Source: Promethearchaeota archaeon
GTDB lineage: Archaea; Asgardarchaeota; Lokiarchaeia; Sigynarchaeales; SOKP01
Length of the DNA: 10,789 nucleotides
Assembly (NCBI GenBank): GCA_014729315.1
Contig: WJKD01000724.1
Location: forward strand, 1-10,789
Direction of reading: 5' to 3'
The notes beneath the pieces are model-generated. The model worked only from the letters and a program-made list of their open reading frames with translations. It had not been told where the DNA came from and made no database searches. Each line of letters opens with the position of its first letter. The stretch's first letter is position 1. The position numbers were made by a program, and so were the translations under genes. This document shows, one piece after another, positions 1,209 through 10,317 of this stretch.

Positions 1209-3398
1209 ATGCCTCGTAGAAAGGAAATTTCTGAGATACTTAATTTAATGGAAAAACGAGAGAAAATTAGGAACATCGGTTTAGTGGGACATATTGATCA
1301 TGGTAAAACTACGCTGAGCGACTCCTTATTGAGTGAAGCAGGATTACTTTCCCCAGATATAGCTGGAGAAGCCAGAGTTCTTGATTACCTCGAAGAGGAG
1401 CAAGAGCGGGGGATCACGATGAAATCAACTAATATCTCCCTATATTACGAGAAAATCATCGAGGAAAAAGAACCTTTCTTAATAAATTTAGTTGATACGC
1501 CAGGTCATTTAGACTTCAGCGGTAAAGTCACTAGAGCGTTACGATTGATTGATGGAGTCGTAGTGGTGGTTGATGCAGTGGAGGAAATAATCTCGCAGTC
1601 GGAAACCGTTATAAAACAAGCGCTTCAAGAGGGAGTTAAACCCGTACTTTATATAAACAAGGTCGATAGGTTAATAAGAGAATTAAAACTGAAGGACGAT
1701 CAAATTAAAAAAAAATATATACGCATCATCGACAAATTCAATAAGCTCGTGGAAAGATTCGCTCACCCTCCCTACGATCAGGAATGGAAGGTTTTACCAG
1801 CAAACGGTAGCGTAGCTTTTGGTTCAGCGTTGCATAAATGGGGATTTACAGCAAGAATATTGGAAAAAAGCGAAATAAAATTCAAGGACATTAGGAAAAG
1901 ATATAAAAAGGAAACATACACTAAGGAAAGCTACGCCGACTTACCTGTTTACTTACCAATTCACAAAGCTATCTTAGAGATGATCGTTAACCATCTACCC
2001 AATCCTACGGACGCTCAAGCATATCGGATCAAGAAGATTTACGACGGCGAGTTAACCAACACCATTGGTGAAGCTTTATTGAGATGCGATCCAAAAGGAC
2101 CGCTCGTCATATCTCTTAGCAAGGTACAATCTGGTAAACACGGTTTAGTAGCAACTGGCAGAATTTTTTCTGGAGAATGTACAAATAAAAAAAAAGTGAC
2201 TCTGCTTAGGGAAAAAAGCGAAGGAGTTATTCAGCGTATTGCTATATTCATGGGACAGAGACGAGAACAAGTAGATAGTATCCCGGTTGGAAATATCGTT
2301 GCGATTGAGGGCTTAAAGGAGGTTAAAAGTGGTGAAACACTCGTTGAACCCGAATATGCCAGTCAAATATTACCATTTGAAAATGTAAGGTATGTGACTA
2401 CACCCGTTGTTACAGTGTCGATTGAACCGGATTATTTACGAGATTTAGAACAAATGAAAAAGATAATTGAAAATCTTTTAATCGAAGATCCAAATTTGAA
2501 GTTTGAAATAAACGAGGAAAACGGAGAGTTCTTATTATCAGGAATGGGTCCTCTTCATCTTGAGGTAACAGCCCACGAAATAGAGAAAAGAGGAGTAAAA
2601 GTCTCTATTTCAGAACCTCGAGCTGTGTTTAAAGAGTCCTGTCGAAATGAATCATCTGAAGTAACTTCCAGCATTTTAAACGGAGAGCATTCAATCACAC
2701 TTAAAGTGCAAAGACTAAATCAGAAGACAATTAAGTTTTTTAAAAAAATGGATTACAAGTCGATAAAACCAGAGCAGAAACTTAAGCAGTTATTAAGCGA
2801 AAAGACTAGTTTATCTAAAGAAGAGATAGAACAATTCCAGATTTGTGATTCTGATCAGAACATATTAATCCTTCTGAAACAAGAACAAGTACCAGAGGAA
2901 TATAGAGAGATCATCTTAGAAATTTTCGAGAAAATTCATCTCAATGGTCCTCTTTGCGGAGAAAAATTAACTGAAGTGAAAGTTACTCTTACGACAAATA
3001 ATATTGATAAGATTAATCAAGAGGAAGCGTTTTCAGAAATTTCTGCAATGTTTTACGAGGCAATTAAAAAAGCTTTAAACGAAGCAGAGTCAATTCTACT
3101 AGAACCGATTTACCATACCATTATCCAACTTCCCCCCGAATATATTAAGAATACACTCTCGCTCCTTCCAAAATATTTCGCAAAAATAATTACCATTGAT
3201 CAAGATAGAGAATATCAAGCGCTCATAGAAATTTTATTGCCAGTGCGAAATTCGGTGAAATTTGCAGAGAATATCAGGTCTATCACCAGTGGGAAGGCGT
3301 TTTGGCAAAACGAGTTTCATTCTTTCATGGAAGTGCCCGCTCAACAAGCTAAATCAATAGTTAGCAATTTGAGATTTGTTAAAGGGCTTTCATGGTAA
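1209..3398 (+). CDS. Elongation factor 2 paralogue lacking the diphthamide loop
   Basis: This is a 729-residue archaeal EF-2 family translational GTPase, near the usual length. EF-2 drives ribosomal translocation. The G domain is intact: P-loop GHIDHGKT (27-34), switch I ERGIT (66-70), DTPGH (96-100), NKVD (150-153), and a G5-like FGSA (about 204-207). Domains II and III follow, with GMGPLHLE at 445-452 where canonical EF-2 has GMGELHLE. Domain IV is strongly diverged. The segment that normally carries the diphthamide histidine (H-x-D-A-x-H-R-G-x-x-Q) reads as residues about 595-608 with no histidine and no RG pair. The SPNKHN-like loop, the WGW region and the RRG loop of domain V are not recognisable either. 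The C-terminal GKAFWQNEF and KGL tail remain EF-2-like. Asgard archaea and Korarchaeota are known to encode such EF-2 paralogues; I infer this is one. Whether it works in translocation is unknown. The start is supported by the TATA-like element 26 bases upstream. Confidence 0.9.
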   Translation: MPRRKEISEILNLMEKREKIRNIGLVGHIDHGKTTLSDSLLSEAGLLSPDIAGEARVLDYLEEEQERGITMKSTNISLYYEKIIEEKEPFLINLVDTPGHLDFSGKVTRALRLIDGVVVVVDAVEEIISQSETVIKQALQEGVKPVLYINKVDRLIRELKLKDDQIKKKYIRIIDKFNKLVERFAHPPYDQEWKVLPANGSVAFGSALHKWGFTARILEKSEIKFKDIRKRYKKETYTKESYADLPVYLPIHKAILEMIVNHLPNPTDAQAYRIKKIYDGELTNTIGEALLRCDPKGPLVISLSKVQSGKHGLVATGRIFSGECTNKKKVTLLREKSEGVIQRIAIFMGQRREQVDSIPVGNIVAIEGLKEVKSGETLVEPEYASQILPFENVRYVTTPVVTVSIEPDYLRDLEQMKKIIENLLIEDPNLKFEINEENGEFLLSGMGPLHLEVTAHEIEKRGVKVSISEPRAVFKESCRNESSEVTSSILNGEHSITLKVQRLNQKTIKFFKKMDYKSIKPEQKLKQLLSEKTSLSKEEIEQFQICDSDQNILILLKQEQVPEEYREIILEIFEKIHLNGPLCGEKLTEVKVTLTTNNIDKINQEEAFSEISAMFYEAIKKALNEAESILLEPIYHTIIQLPPEYIKNTLSLLPKYFAKIITIDQDREYQALIEILLPVRNSVKFAENIRSITSGKAFWQNEFHSFMEVPAQQAKSIVSNLRFVKGLSW

Positions 3399-4638: not shown

Positions 4639-4648
4639 CATTTTTAAA

Positions 4649-4719
4649 TGCGCCATCCGGGAATTGAACCCGGGCCGCGGGCTTGGGAAGCCAGCATACT
4701 ACCACTATACAAATAGCGC
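4649..4719 (-). tRNA. tRNA-Gly, anticodon CCC
   Basis: A 71-nt cloverleaf on the minus strand. The acceptor stem is GCGCTAT paired with ATGGCGC (one G-U), with discriminator A73 as usual for archaeal and eukaryal tRNA-Gly. The D arm contains AGTGGTAGT. The anticodon loop TTCCCAA gives anticodon CCC (plus-strand 4685-4687), which reads GGG codons. The T arm CCGGG-TTCAATT-CCCGG is perfect and the variable loop has 4 bases. The anticodon stem, CTGGC against GCCCG, contains one T-C mismatch (positions 28-42), which is slightly unusual. CCA is not encoded, so it must be added after transcription. No intron is present. Its own TATA-like element lies upstream and a T tract downstream. Confidence 0.95.
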
Positions 4720-5135
4720 AAGGATGGGATTATATTGATGTTCTGATATATTAAATCCCTATAACATATTAAAATACCCTAACATTTATATTTTATTTGT
4801 TTCTATCTTTTTAACTTTTGACGCAGATTTCCTAAGAGTTTTTATAAAACAGAGAAGTTTGCTAATTTAGTTCGTGTTATTTATGAAAATTATCAAAAAT
4901 CCATAATTCTTAAATATCTAATTCAAAATCTTTACAGTAACTCAGATTGAAAATTAAATTATTGAAGAAAATTTAAATTTGATTCTCTTGAGGTTCTTAT
5001 TAAAATTTTCAGTCATCCGAAATTTAATGACGAATGATACGATTAAATAAAGGTTTATACGAAAAGCAAAACATTGATTTTATTTTATTTATTCTTAGAT
5101 TTGAATTAAAGATAGAATTAAGGTAGTTAGCTATT
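4720..5135. other. 416-base A+T-rich divergent intergenic region
   Basis: This lies between the minus-strand tRNA and the plus-strand kinase operon and must hold both promoters. The tRNA TATA-like element is at 4746-4755. For the kinase, TATA-like candidates on the plus strand are TTTTTATAAAA near 4839-4849 and TTTATAC near 5053-5059; neither can be chosen from sequence alone. A small inverted repeat, GTCAT (5012-5016) with ATGAC (5027-5031), could be an operator or chance. No gene is visible. Confidence 0.5.
4746..4755 (-). promoter_or_regulatory. Putative TATA box of the tRNA-Gly gene
   Basis: On the minus strand this reads TTTAATATAT, close to the archaeal TATA consensus. It is centred about 30 bases upstream of the first tRNA nucleotide and is preceded by purine-rich AGGGA that could serve as a BRE. 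Position and sequence both fit a tRNA promoter. Confidence 0.5.
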
Positions 5136-6552: not shown

Positions 6553-7119
6553 ATGAAGAAAAAAAAAATATTAGTGGTGGAGGACGAATACATAGTTGCT
6601 AAAGATTTAGAAAAGACTCTGGATTTTTTGGGTTACTTAGTTCCTGCGACAGTAACTTCGGGGGAAGATGCCATCGCGCGGGCAATTGAATTAAAACCCG
6701 ATTTAATATTGATGGATATTCGTTTGGAAGGTGAAAAGGACGGAATCGTTGCGGCTAAGGAAATTCAAAAAGAAATTAGCGTTCCGATAATCTACATCAC
6801 AGCTTATGCTGACGAAAAAACGCTAAGCGAAGCAAAATTAACAGAACCCTATGGGTATATAGTTAAACCATTTAAGGATGTAGAGCTAAAATCTACAATA
6901 GAAATTTCTCTCCACAAACATAAAATAGAGAAACAACTGAAAGAAAATAGAAAATGGTTAGACGCAACTCTGAGGAGCATTGGAGACGCTGTAATTGCTA
7001 CTAACGGAATGGGCATTATTAGATTTATTAATCTATCCGCCGAAAAATTAACAGGTTGGAGCGAAGAGGATGCTATTGGTACGAAATTAGAAATAGTGTT
7101 TAAAATTAAAAATTTTTAA
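6553..7119 (+). CDS. REC-PAS N-terminal part of a hybrid kinase, cut by in-frame TAA
   Basis: 188 residues. Residues 1-122 are a complete receiver domain with acidic pocket E10/D11, phosphoacceptor D55 (LILMDIRLEG), T83 and K105 (VKPF). A coiled linker follows, then a PAS domain from about residue 133 (IGDAVIATNGMGIIRFIN). The frame stops at a TAA after residue 188, in the middle of this PAS domain at a site where related PAS domains read VFKI-x-N-x-x-(T/S)GKP. The same phase continues directly after the stop with SGKP and the rest of the PAS fold, so this is the N-terminal portion of a 1,254-codon hybrid gene. Alone it could still act as a response regulator with a truncated PAS tail. It lies 31 bases after the HisKA_2 kinase gene, and its REC is the natural phosphorylation target of that kinase. 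The ATG start is supported by GTGAT 6 bases upstream. Confidence 0.85.
   Translation: MKKKKILVVEDEYIVAKDLEKTLDFLGYLVPATVTSGEDAIARAIELKPDLILMDIRLEGEKDGIVAAKEIQKEISVPIIYITAYADEKTLSEAKLTEPYGYIVKPFKDVELKSTIEISLHKHKIEKQLKENRKWLDATLRSIGDAVIATNGMGIIRFINLSAEKLTGWSEEDAIGTKLEIVFKIKNF
7117..7119 (+). other. In-frame TAA interrupting the hybrid kinase gene
   Basis: This single TAA separates two reading frames in identical phase (6553 and 7120 are both 1 modulo 3). On both sides the translation matches one continuous PAS domain. The stop sits where relatives often have Lys or Glu, and AAA, GAA or CAA to TAA is a one-base change. It may be a true nonsense mutation, an assembly or sequencing error, strain polymorphism, or a read-through site. 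Confidence 0.85.
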
Positions 7120-7197
7120 TCGGGAAAACCAACAAATCCAGAGTATAAAGACTTAATAAATCAAGACCTTTTTACTAAAAAATCTCATAAACTTTCC

Positions 7198-10100
7198 TTG
7201 GAAACTAAAAATGGGAATATATTACCTATAGAATTTAATTGTTCCGTTATAAAGAATGGTGAAGGATTAAACAAAGGTACTATTTTAACCTTTAGAGATA
7301 TCTCTCAAAAAATTGAATGGGAAGAGCGCTTACGAGAATCCGAGGAAAAGTATAGATTGATCGCCGAAGATGCAGGGGATTTGATCTCGGTGTATAATTC
7401 GGAAGCAAAATTAATATATTTTAATAAAAAAGCACACGAAAAGGCACTAGGATATGACGCAGAGCAATTAAATAAATTTAAGTTTCGAATTCAAATTACA
7501 CATGAAGCTGATCGTCGTGATCAAGCTAAACAATTTCTAAAAATCCTAAAGACTGGACAAGCTCAACATCAATTTCGACTTAAACATAAAGATGGACATT
7601 ACGTTTGGTTTGATTCAGTAGGGCGTGTTTTTGCAGATAGATTTGGAAGAAAGAACATTTTATTCATCTCAAGAGATATAAGCGAGCGAAAGTTGATGGA
7701 ACAAGAGCTACGTAAATCCGAAGAGAAGTTCAAGGGGCTCTACGATTCGTTAAAGGACGGTATTGGGTTAACTGATCTTGAGGGTAATATTATCGATTGT
7801 AATCAAGCTTTTTTAGATATGCTCGGTTATACTAAAAACGAGATCTTAAATTTAAGCTTTAACGATATCACCCCTAAAAAATGGCACGATAAAGAAAGAT
7901 CGATACTGGAAAATCAAGTAAATGTTAGGGGGTATTCTGACGAATACGAGAAGGAATACATCAAAAATGATGGAACTGTCATTCCTATAAACATAAAAAC
8001 CTGGCTTATTAAAGAAAATAATGAAAATCCAATTGGTTATTGGGCAATAATTAGAGATATAAGCTATAAAAAAGCCGCGCTACAACAATTAAAAGAATCT
8101 GAAGAAAGGTTTAGAACTCTTTACGAAAATATCGTAGGTGGGACATTAATTATAGGAAAAGACTATAAGATAAAGGACGTTAATCAATACACTTGCGACG
8201 TAACTGGGTATTTAAAAGAAGAACTCGTAGGACAGTTATGCGATATAATATGTCCAAGAGGTTCGTCTTCCCACGACTGTCCGATATGGGAGATAGGTAA
8301 AAAAGAATTCCGAGGGATGGACACTCAGATAAAATGTAAGGCCGAAGAGCGTATTTCGATATTAAAAAACGCAAGGAAAATTAAACTGGATGGAGAAACT
8401 TATATATTTGAAACATTTCAGGACATTCACGATCGCAAGATTGCGGAACAAAAAGTAAAGGAATCGGAAGAAAAATTTCGTCATTTGTTCGAGAAAGCAC
8501 CCCACGCAATAATTATTCTTGATACTAATGGAATTCTAATCGACTGCAATTCTACGGCTCTAAGCTTTTCGGGTTATTTAAAATCCGAATTAATTGGAAA
8601 AAAAATATTGGAATTGTTGGAACTTTTTAAGATTTCTAAAATGAATATAAAAATTCAAAACGCCTTTAAAAATTCATTGAGGGGGGAGTCGAAAAATAAC
8701 ATCGAAATCCCCATACTAACCAAAGATGGAAGACAAATTTGGATTACTATGAATGGTTCGTTGATCTCAGTTGGAGATCAAGAATATATCCAAACAATCA
8801 TACAAGATATTACTAAAAGAAAGGAAGCCGAACGGCAACTTAAAAAGTCGGAGGAAAAGTATAGAGAACTCGTTCATAACGCTAATAGCATCATTTTAAA
8901 GCTAGATGTTAAGTATACCATAATTTTTATTAACGAATTTGGCGAACGATTTTTTGGATACAGAAGTAACGAGTTGATTGGAAGAAGTGTAGTAGGGACT
9001 CTTTTACCAAAAAAGGAAAGTACCGGGAGAAATCTTGAAAAGATGGTGAAAAAATTGGTTCTCAATCCAGATAATTACGAATATAATGAGAACGAAAATA
9101 TGACAAAACATGGAGAAATAAAGTGGATTTCTTGGACTAATAAGGGTATTTACGACCAATACGGAAAGCTTACTGGCGTACTTTCAGTTGGCACAGACAT
9201 TACAGAACGCAAGGAAGCTGAGCTCGCCTTAATGGAATCGGAAGAGAAATTTCGTTCAATAGCCGAACAATCATTTTTAGGTATCCTTATTATTCAAAAT
9301 GGCTACATTAAATATGTTAACGATGTATTAACCGATTTGTTAGATCTCACAGAAGAAGAGCTATTTAATTTACCCCAATACGAAATTTATAATCTTTTAG
9401 AATATCCCAAAAATTTCGGATTTTCTACAAATAAGAATATTAAGTTATATTTATCCACAAAATTAGATATAAAGACTGGTAAGTCTCTATGGGTGGATCA
9501 GTACGCAAAAAGAATTCAATTCAAAGCTGAGCCTGCAGATCTTATAACAATCTTCGATGTGACCGAAAAGAAAGAAGCGGAAAAGCTCGTAATCGAGGAA
9601 AATAAAAAACTCCTCGAATTAAATCAGATGAAAAATGAATTTATCACTAGAATTTCTCACGAGCTTAAAACGCCATTGAATTCCATTTACGGTGCATCCA
9701 CCTTATTACTGGACCTTTATATTGATAATATAAATGATAAAGCTAAAAGACTTGTTGAAATTATACATAAAGGCGGAGAGCGACTGGATAAATTGATTCT
9801 AAATTTAATCGACGTCTTGAGAATCGAATCCAATAAATTACGCCTTGACAAGAAAGAAGTAAGCCTACTCGATATGGTACAAGACTGTATAAACGATGTG
9901 ATTCATTTTATTGAAGAACGTGATCTATTCATAAATGTGGATGTTCCTTCGGATATCGTGCTGTCCGTGGATAAACATAGGATTAAAGAATTAATACTTA
10001 ATTTGCTCACGAACGCAATAAAAAATACACCGCAAAATGGTCAAATCACCTTAAGCATTCAAGATTATTTTACTTTTGTTGACGTGAAAATTAAAGACTC

Positions 10101-10317
10101 AGGTGTAGGGTTCACGAAGGAAGAAAAAACTCAACTTTTTAAAAGATTCGGAAAAATTGAACGATACGGAAAAGGTATGGATATCGACACTGAAGGAACT
10201 GGTTTAGGACTTTTTATATCCAAAAAAATAGTTGAGCTCCACAATGGGGAGATCTGGGTTGAGTCTGAAGGTAGAAATCGAGGTTCTACTTTTGTGGTGA
10301 GATTACCTAAAAGCTAA
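7198..10317 (+). CDS. Multi-PAS histidine kinase, C-terminal part of the split hybrid gene
   Basis: The frame is open from 7120; the TTG at 7198 is only the first possible start codon and lies inside a PAS domain, and the first ATG is at about 7696, so independent initiation looks poor. Numbered from 6553, the continuous product would be: REC 1-122, PAS1 133-253 (interrupted at 189), PAS2 259-380, PAS3 386-508, PAS4 513-630, PAS5 635-758, PAS6 763-888, PAS7 893-1008, HisKA about 1018-1090, HATPase about 1135-1252. The H box is ISHELKTP with phosphoacceptor His1036; the N box holds Asn1154, G1 is DSGVGF (1182-1187), the F box FKRFGK, and G2 GTGLGL (1215-1220), so the catalytic core is intact. 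PAS4 carries a Cys-x3-Cys-Pro-x8-Cys-Pro motif (Cys563, 567, 576), suggesting metal or redox sensing. Each PAS after the first is preceded by a SEEK(F/Y)R-like coiled linker. No membrane segments are present. The receiver protein on the opposite strand is a possible partner. Confidence 0.85.
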   Translation: METKNGNILPIEFNCSVIKNGEGLNKGTILTFRDISQKIEWEERLRESEEKYRLIAEDAGDLISVYNSEAKLIYFNKKAHEKALGYDAEQLNKFKFRIQITHEADRRDQAKQFLKILKTGQAQHQFRLKHKDGHYVWFDSVGRVFADRFGRKNILFISRDISERKLMEQELRKSEEKFKGLYDSLKDGIGLTDLEGNIIDCNQAFLDMLGYTKNEILNLSFNDITPKKWHDKERSILENQVNVRGYSDEYEKEYIKNDGTVIPINIKTWLIKENNENPIGYWAIIRDISYKKAALQQLKESEERFRTLYENIVGGTLIIGKDYKIKDVNQYTCDVTGYLKEELVGQLCDIICPRGSSSHDCPIWEIGKKEFRGMDTQIKCKAEERISILKNARKIKLDGETYIFETFQDIHDRKIAEQKVKESEEKFRHLFEKAPHAIIILDTNGILIDCNSTALSFSGYLKSELIGKKILELLELFKISKMNIKIQNAFKNSLRGESKNNIEIPILTKDGRQIWITMNGSLISVGDQEYIQTIIQDITKRKEAERQLKKSEEKYRELVHNANSIILKLDVKYTIIFINEFGERFFGYRSNELIGRSVVGTLLPKKESTGRNLEKMVKKLVLNPDNYEYNENENMTKHGEIKWISWTNKGIYDQYGKLTGVLSVGTDITERKEAELALMESEEKFRSIAEQSFLGILIIQNGYIKYVNDVLTDLLDLTEEELFNLPQYEIYNLLEYPKNFGFSTNKNIKLYLSTKLDIKTGKSLWVDQYAKRIQFKAEPADLITIFDVTEKKEAEKLVIEENKKLLELNQMKNEFITRISHELKTPLNSIYGASTLLLDLYIDNINDKAKRLVEIIHKGGERLDKLILNLIDVLRIESNKLRLDKKEVSLLDMVQDCINDVIHFIEERDLFINVDVPSDIVLSVDKHRIKELILNLLTNAIKNTPQNGQITLSIQDYFTFVDVKIKDSGVGFTKEEKTQLFKRFGKIERYGKGMDIDTEGTGLGLFISKKIVELHNGEIWVESEGRNRGSTFVVRLPKS

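Follow-up and report, generated by a model that had tools for sequence, protein, structure and literature searches.

A Lokiarchaeal EF-2 paralogue with a replaced diphthamide loop, and a possible role on the large ribosomal subunit

INTRODUCTION

Diphthamide was long thought to be universal in archaea and eukaryotes. Many Asgard lineages lack the modification and keep two EF-2s, and this raises the question of what a second EF-2 does once the loop that carries diphthamide has gone. The mainly open-access literature searched mentions the second Asgard EF-2, but an assigned function for it was not found there. Here the question is addressed for a gene within a 10,789-nucleotide stretch of the Promethearchaeota archaeon contig WJKD01000724.1 (the window).

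RESULTS

The gene and its protein

The features of the gene are collected in Table 1. An earlier note on this DNA, made from its letters, had described a complete EF-2 reading frame with intact G1-G5 motifs, and this description holds for the frame and for G1-G4: the full set of EF-2 domains is found, together with the P-loop, switch I, DTPGH and NKVD. The EF-2 domains are matched in Pfam, domain IV marginally so (25.1 bits vs a cut-off of 24). The archaeal EF-2 profile TIGR00490 aligns end to end with the protein at 622 bits, which does not reach the curated cut-off of 738.45 for the canonical aEF-2 equivalog. The closest solved structures are the archaeal EF-2s of S. acidocaldarius (8hl1) and P. 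horikoshii (5h7j).

Table 1. Features of the EF-2 paralogue gene, in window coordinates
Feature	Position	Strand	Remarks	Basis
EF-2 paralogue (EF-2p)	1209..3398	+	729 aa plus stop	ORF and homology
G1 P-loop GHIDHGKTT	1287..1313	+	intact	alignment
G2/switch I RGIT	1407..1418	+	intact	alignment
G3 DTPGH	1494..1508	+	intact, includes the GTPase His	alignment
G4 NKVD	1656..1667	+	intact	alignment
Domain III GMGPLHLE	2541..2564	+	P448 vs E in canonical EF-2	alignment
Domain IV loop SILNGEH	2670..2690	+	replaces KSPNKHN	alignment
Replaced diphthamide loop (TNNIDKINQEEAFSE)	2994..3038	+	residues 596-610	gapless alignment
Glu605 codon	3021..3023	+	aligned to the diphthamide His	alignment

The best 119 protein relatives are 69-73% identical to the window protein, and all those entered under an organism name are Asgard. 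Full-length matches in genome contigs are labelled Lokiarchaea in 20/20 cases; a 21st match covers 55 residues only and lies in a proteobacterial contig. Since 110 of the 119 relatives share the exact length of 729 aa, the frame is not a product of chance. Judged from these matches, the protein is a Lokiarchaeal representative of an Asgard EF-2 paralogue already in print, so that the kind itself is known.

Two further features of the window lie outside this gene. A tRNA-Gly (CCC) is located at 4648-4720 (-), between a leucine-rich-repeat gene and PAS kinases. Two ORFs at 6553-10317, one of response-regulator/PAS type and the other a multi-PAS histidine kinase, share a frame that is broken by an in-frame TAA at 7117-7119; a split gene, a nonsense change or an assembly error would account for this.

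The replaced diphthamide loop

To examine the loop, 132 EF-2 sequences were aligned together, ORFs below 600 aa being left out; six second-locus copies of genes already included were dropped from the counts. In the window protein the H-x-D-x-x-H-R-G-x-x-Q loop is substituted. In place of the canonical H600, D602, H605, R606, G607 and Q610 it has D, I, E, E, A and E respectively, and the residues required for diphthamide are gone (H605E, R606E, G607A). H605 and R606 are kept in 23/23 canonical EF-2 sequences. HRG occurs nowhere in the window protein or its best 119 relatives; an HRG-type loop elsewhere in the protein, which the earlier note had named as a refuting result, was not found. Histidine is present at 600 or 605 in 0/119 of these relatives, and a stray histidine occurs within residues 596-610 in 2/119. 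Positions 2995-3032, where the note had placed the change, correspond to residues 596-608 and do belong to the loop, but the full loop extends over residues 596-610 (nucleotides 2994-3038). An insertion of about five residues had also been proposed; this is ruled out, as the loop alignment is gapless and GPL and LLEP delimit a 54-residue span in the window protein as in Sulfolobus EF-2.

Two other motifs that had been singled out are indeed changed. P448 is the family state, found in 118/119 of the best relatives, and the SPNKHN-like loop of domain IV is altered (Table 1).

The replaced region is not uniformly variable. Among the 119 best relatives E605 is kept in 102, F608 in 113, E610 in 115, S612 in 116 and Y616 in 117; because the last four are kept in 113-117 of 119, part of the replaced region is under a constraint of its own. 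The centre of the loop is variable among the same relatives, and for residues 596-610 of the window protein and the 119 taken together the mean agreement with the consensus is 0.61, with none of the 15 positions at 0.98 or above. In the wider class to which the window protein belongs (EF-2p, 78 sequences) H605 is found in 2/78 and a gap at 605 in 8/78, with R606 in 13/78, T606 in 9/78 and P608 in 9/78. Some slower EF-2p loops (L086, L095 and L096) resemble a worn HRGPxQ. Eight members of the class (L120-L122, L124, L127, L130, L131 and L160) have a different conserved tip, approximately PETSWRDIT, and in most of them domain IV is so altered that only residues 9-490 or so align with the window protein.

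The HT-type partner

A second class of EF-2, termed HT-type, keeps H605 and has T606 in place of arginine in 25/25 sequences; H600, D602 and P448 are likewise present in 25/25. P448 is common to this class and to 44/78 EF-2p sequences. HT-type proteins are about 32-36% identical to the window protein, and most have an SxNxHN-like loop. A second EF-2 of HT-type is found in 12/12 related Loki genomes searched, two of them having fragments only, one of which ends before the tip and was assigned to its class from the remaining sequence. In 3/3 Loki regions examined with Pfam the HT-type gene lies on the same strand as the aIF5B and CCA-enzyme genes and within a few kb of them, with intervening ORFs in 2/3. 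From its retained residues and setting, the HT-type copy is probably the translocase in Loki genomes. An aIF6 family match is present in all 12 Loki genomes (one a fragment) and SBDS in 11/12.

One Loki genome (G011) has a third, partial EF-2-like gene (L046) with cysteine at the diphthamide position (tip ISEDSRCAGYNQI). Just before switch I, two Loki HT-type genes (L041 in G012 and L043 in G002) are longer by some ten codons, one of them an in-frame TAA. These could be an intron or a recoding site; their fold is not clearly bulge-helix-bulge.

Distribution of EF-2 classes and dph genes in Asgard genomes

The census covers 195 Asgard genomes, and as most are MAGs of unstated completeness the absence of a gene is weak evidence. 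Dph1/2 (PF01866) is found in 19, Dph5 (TIGR00522) in 22 and HT-type EF-2 in 144, the last being 147 matches less three dph-bearing canonical ones at 40% identity. Dph1/2 occurs together with HT-type in 0 of the 144 HT-type genomes of this sample. EF-2p genomes number 80 among the matches listed, all at an identity of at least 40% except G120 at 37%; Dph1/2 and Dph5 are found in 0/80 of them. With 12/12 Loki relatives carrying a second EF-2, this supports the earlier reading of the gene as an EF-2 paralogue of a kind that in Asgard archaea often goes with loss of dph genes. Not counted in the 80 is G034, which has dph5 and a fragmentary EF-2 sharing 54% identity with the window protein. Also outside the 80, G068 combines dph5 with an HT-type and an EF-2p-like gene and is the one HT genome with Dph5. 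PF01902, the Dph6 family, is matched in 40/195 genomes; these include Loki genomes without Dph1/2, so the match is uninformative for dph status, and the family also has other roles, as the title of PMC3541065 indicates.

An HT-type copy is present in 68/80 EF-2p genomes among the matches listed. Three of the remaining 12 have HT-like fragments, and in nine of the 80 not even a fragment was found at E 1e-15. MAG incompleteness is an easy explanation for these nine; EF-2p may also act alone in some genomes. Of the 29 HT genomes in which the window protein matched once, 28 have a single EF-2, of HT-type (E 1e-25), and the 29th has two complementary EF-2 fragments.

The dph-bearing Asgard genomes are of two kinds. 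The first has a eukaryote-like EF-2, for example L150, whose best match is fungal eEF2. The second has a single ordinary HRG EF-2 (L092-L094 and L111-L113, in G050, G042, G069, G016, G057 and G063). The named proteins nearest L092 are from Lokiarchaeia (one), Freyarchaeum, Jordarchaeaceae/Jordarchaeales and Ranarchaeia, followed by Bathyarchaeota at about 65-68%. In the sections of Eme et al. (2023, PMC10307638) consulted, dph is placed among Asgards in Hodarchaeales only. The second kind would then appear to be exceptional, provided that the MAGs are clean.

Descent of EF-2p

When the tip columns are removed before tree building, the HT-type sequences come out as a single clade (support 1.0) and EF-2p joins the ordinary HRG EF-2s (0.987); EF-2p monophyly has a support of 0.674. 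A tree without domain IV (61 hand-picked sequences, displayed with two euryarchaeal references as root) points in the same direction, with EF-2p near HRG EF-2 and many deep nodes weak (UFB 26-67, one 80). Two EF-2p subgroups (L121/L122 and L086/L087) fall apart from the rest in this tree, and EF-2p monophyly is poorly supported, yet is not rejected on the same alignment (AU p 0.25). A single clade of all EF-2p with HT-type, as expected from a recent duplication of HT-type in dph-less lineages, fails the AU test (p 0.020) but not the SH test (p 0.058); a clade of HT-type with the Loki-centred core of EF-2p is not rejected (AU p 0.18). EF-2p does not fall inside the diphthamide-bearing EF-2s, in keeping with the earlier proposal of a paralogue, and leans towards a position as their sister. 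The trees lean towards EF-2p being nearer to canonical HRG EF-2 than to HT-type, and descent from canonical EF-2 is tentatively favoured. The presence of P448 in all HT-type and 44 of the 78 EF-2p sequences could be read as the opposite descent.

Rates and selection

Divergence of EF-2p was compared with that of HT-type, domain by domain, in 10 Loki genomes that carry both copies; two of the 12 were omitted because their HT copies are fragments. The EF-2p/HT ratio in these matched genomes is 1.31 (95% interval 0.96-1.83) for domain I, 1.58 (1.22-2.09) for domain II, 1.10 (0.71-1.74) for domain III, 2.32 (1.87-2.94) for domain IV and 1.38 (1.02-1.93) for domain V. The interval spans 1 for domains I and III and just excludes it for V. 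The earlier suggestion that divergence is confined to the tip therefore does not stand; the whole of domain IV is fast, and domain II is fast too.

For three close pairs dN/dS of EF-2p amounts to 0.12-0.13 over the full length and rises to 0.19-0.30 in domain IV, from which EF-2p is taken to be under purifying selection. HT-type gives 0.08-0.12 over the full length and 0.03-0.13 for domain IV, but in one pair domain II reaches 0.44.

Inserts in other EF-2 genes

Several EF-2 genes carry short inserts. Three canonical genes of a Jordarchaeaceae-like group (L111, L112 and L113) have 29 nt inserted next to DTPGH (3/3), and four EF-2p genes (L125, L126, L128 and L129) have 31 nt inserted in switch I (4/4). 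All seven inserts fold as hairpins resembling archaeal bulge-helix-bulge introns, with shuffle z values of -1.2 to -3.2, some of them weak, and the reading frame resumes across the inserts with the expected motif. L116 carries a similar insert. The database proteins P0127-P0130 (636 aa) and P0131 (617 aa) may be truncated by such an insert. No report of bulge-helix-bulge-like introns in EF-2 was found among the literature titles listed. In the EF-2p gene L102 (G022) the P-loop is split between GK and TT by an intein-like insert that begins with C and ends with HN.

DISCUSSION

A function for EF-2p

EF-2p is a family in which the loop is lost in 119/119 of the best relatives of the window protein and the GTPase motifs are intact. 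We favour, at about an even chance of being right, the reading that it is a working GTPase without diphthamide that has left translocation and acts mainly on the large subunit. The HT-type copy would carry out translocation, freeing EF-2p for other work. With its domains I, III and V, EF-2p would dock at the factor site, formed by the sarcin-ricin loop and the stalk base, and hydrolyse GTP there. Its main targets would be the large subunit or ribosomes that are not translating, so that domains II and IV would no longer be held to their contacts with mRNA, tRNA and the small subunit. In EF-2, domains II and IV are turned towards the small subunit, and the large subunit is faced by domains I, III and V. 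Given these contacts, the fast evolution of II and IV fits a retained 50S footprint. Several points count against this reading: domain V, which is 50S-facing by the same division, is also slightly fast; overall dN/dS is only slightly lower in HT-type than in EF-2p, and one HT-type pair has a high value in domain II (0.44); and nine of the listed EF-2p genomes show no HT-type copy.

The likeliest task for such a factor would be one of the 50S-only jobs known for archaeal EF-2, either ejecting the anti-association factor aIF6 or holding idle 50S subunits. In the excerpts consulted, aEF-2 uses GTP to eject aIF6 from isolated Sulfolobus 50S, with no need of the 30S subunit (PMC8024482), and aEF2 with PurH locks 50S dimers in Methanosarcina that exclude the 30S, with domain IV off its translocation position (PMC12605026).

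The fast domain IV would also fit a second translocase that has become specialised, its new tip serving certain mRNAs, conditions or stalled ribosomes, because the replaced region is partly conserved among the 119 relatives. The five retained domains and near-constant length are in its favour, as are the nine listed EF-2p genomes without an HT-type copy. Against it stand the low consensus agreement of residues 596-610 in EF-2p and the retention of H600, D602 and H605 throughout HT-type, and we regard this alternative as unlikely. Less probable again is a recycling or splitting factor. The EF-G2-type paralogue of EF-G splits ribosomes without translocating, and a retained G domain with an altered domain IV would suit such a role; against it, recycling in archaea is the work of ABCE1.

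A role in hibernation, in which EF-2p and a purine-pathway enzyme would jointly clamp idle 50S subunits, is, if anything, slightly more improbable than one in recycling. The PurH-aEF2 dimer of 50S subunits in Methanosarcina offers a precedent (PMC12605026, in the part consulted), and in 18/20 Loki loci EF-2p is immediately preceded by a purN-like gene of the same strand (a PF00551 match in the one copy tested). Against this, purN differs from purH, and the region upstream of EF-2p is broadly syntenic in Lokis, so the adjacency may be passive. Moreover purN is missing ahead of the gene both in L014 and in the window, which has a CheB methylesterase gene at that place (in L003 the upstream sequence is too short to judge), and none was found beside non-Loki EF-2p genes within the approximately 1-1.5 kb of flank searched. 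As evidence for a hibernation complex the neighbourhood was therefore set aside as only a lead. Decay of a functionless duplicate, which might be suggested by the loss of every key loop residue and the faster evolution relative to the HT-type partner, is ruled out for practical purposes by the constancy of length, a dN/dS of about 0.13 and the intact GTPase motifs.

For the favoured reading, a GTPase of the large subunit, the contrast in rates between domains, set against a control from the same genome, gives a clear bench test of translocation versus 50S-only activities.

Comparison with known systems

The window protein shares with canonical aEF-2 the full-length five-domain architecture and the intact GTPase motifs, and differs in lacking the HRG loop and in its profile score (622 bits vs the 738 cut-off). 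HT-type EF-2 occurs in the same genomes and commonly has P448 as the window protein does, but it forms a separate clade and, unlike the window protein, keeps H600, D602 and H605.

By analogy, EF-2p of the window may act like Efl1/Ria1, an EF-2 paralogue at the large subunit. Efl1/Ria1 has large insertions and is a protein of about 1100 aa; PDB chain 5anb is 1120 aa vs 729 aa for the window protein, which is without Efl1-type length and aligns end to end with archaeal EF-2. Eukaryotic Efl1 ejects eIF6 from the large subunit, according to the portion of PMC8024482 consulted. A broader proposal, possible though doubtful on the sequence comparisons made here, is that dph-less Asgards have split EF-2 between two genes: EF-2p, of canonical lineage, would have become a dedicated large-subunit GTPase and the divergent histidine-bearing copy the translocase, and the EF-2/Efl1 split would then have a prokaryotic counterpart of independent origin.

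An archaeal EF-2 paralogue (aEF-2p) of dph-lacking archaea was reportedly described by Narrowe et al. in 2018. Asgard archaea lacking dph carry a second EF-2 without the residues needed for diphthamide, as stated in the consulted part of Eme et al. (2023, PMC10307638). Like the window protein, aEF-2p is an EF-2 homologue without the diphthamide-required residues, and nothing in the window protein excludes membership. Set against the aEF-2p of the literature, what is new here is the comparison with the HT-type partner and the domain-wise rates.
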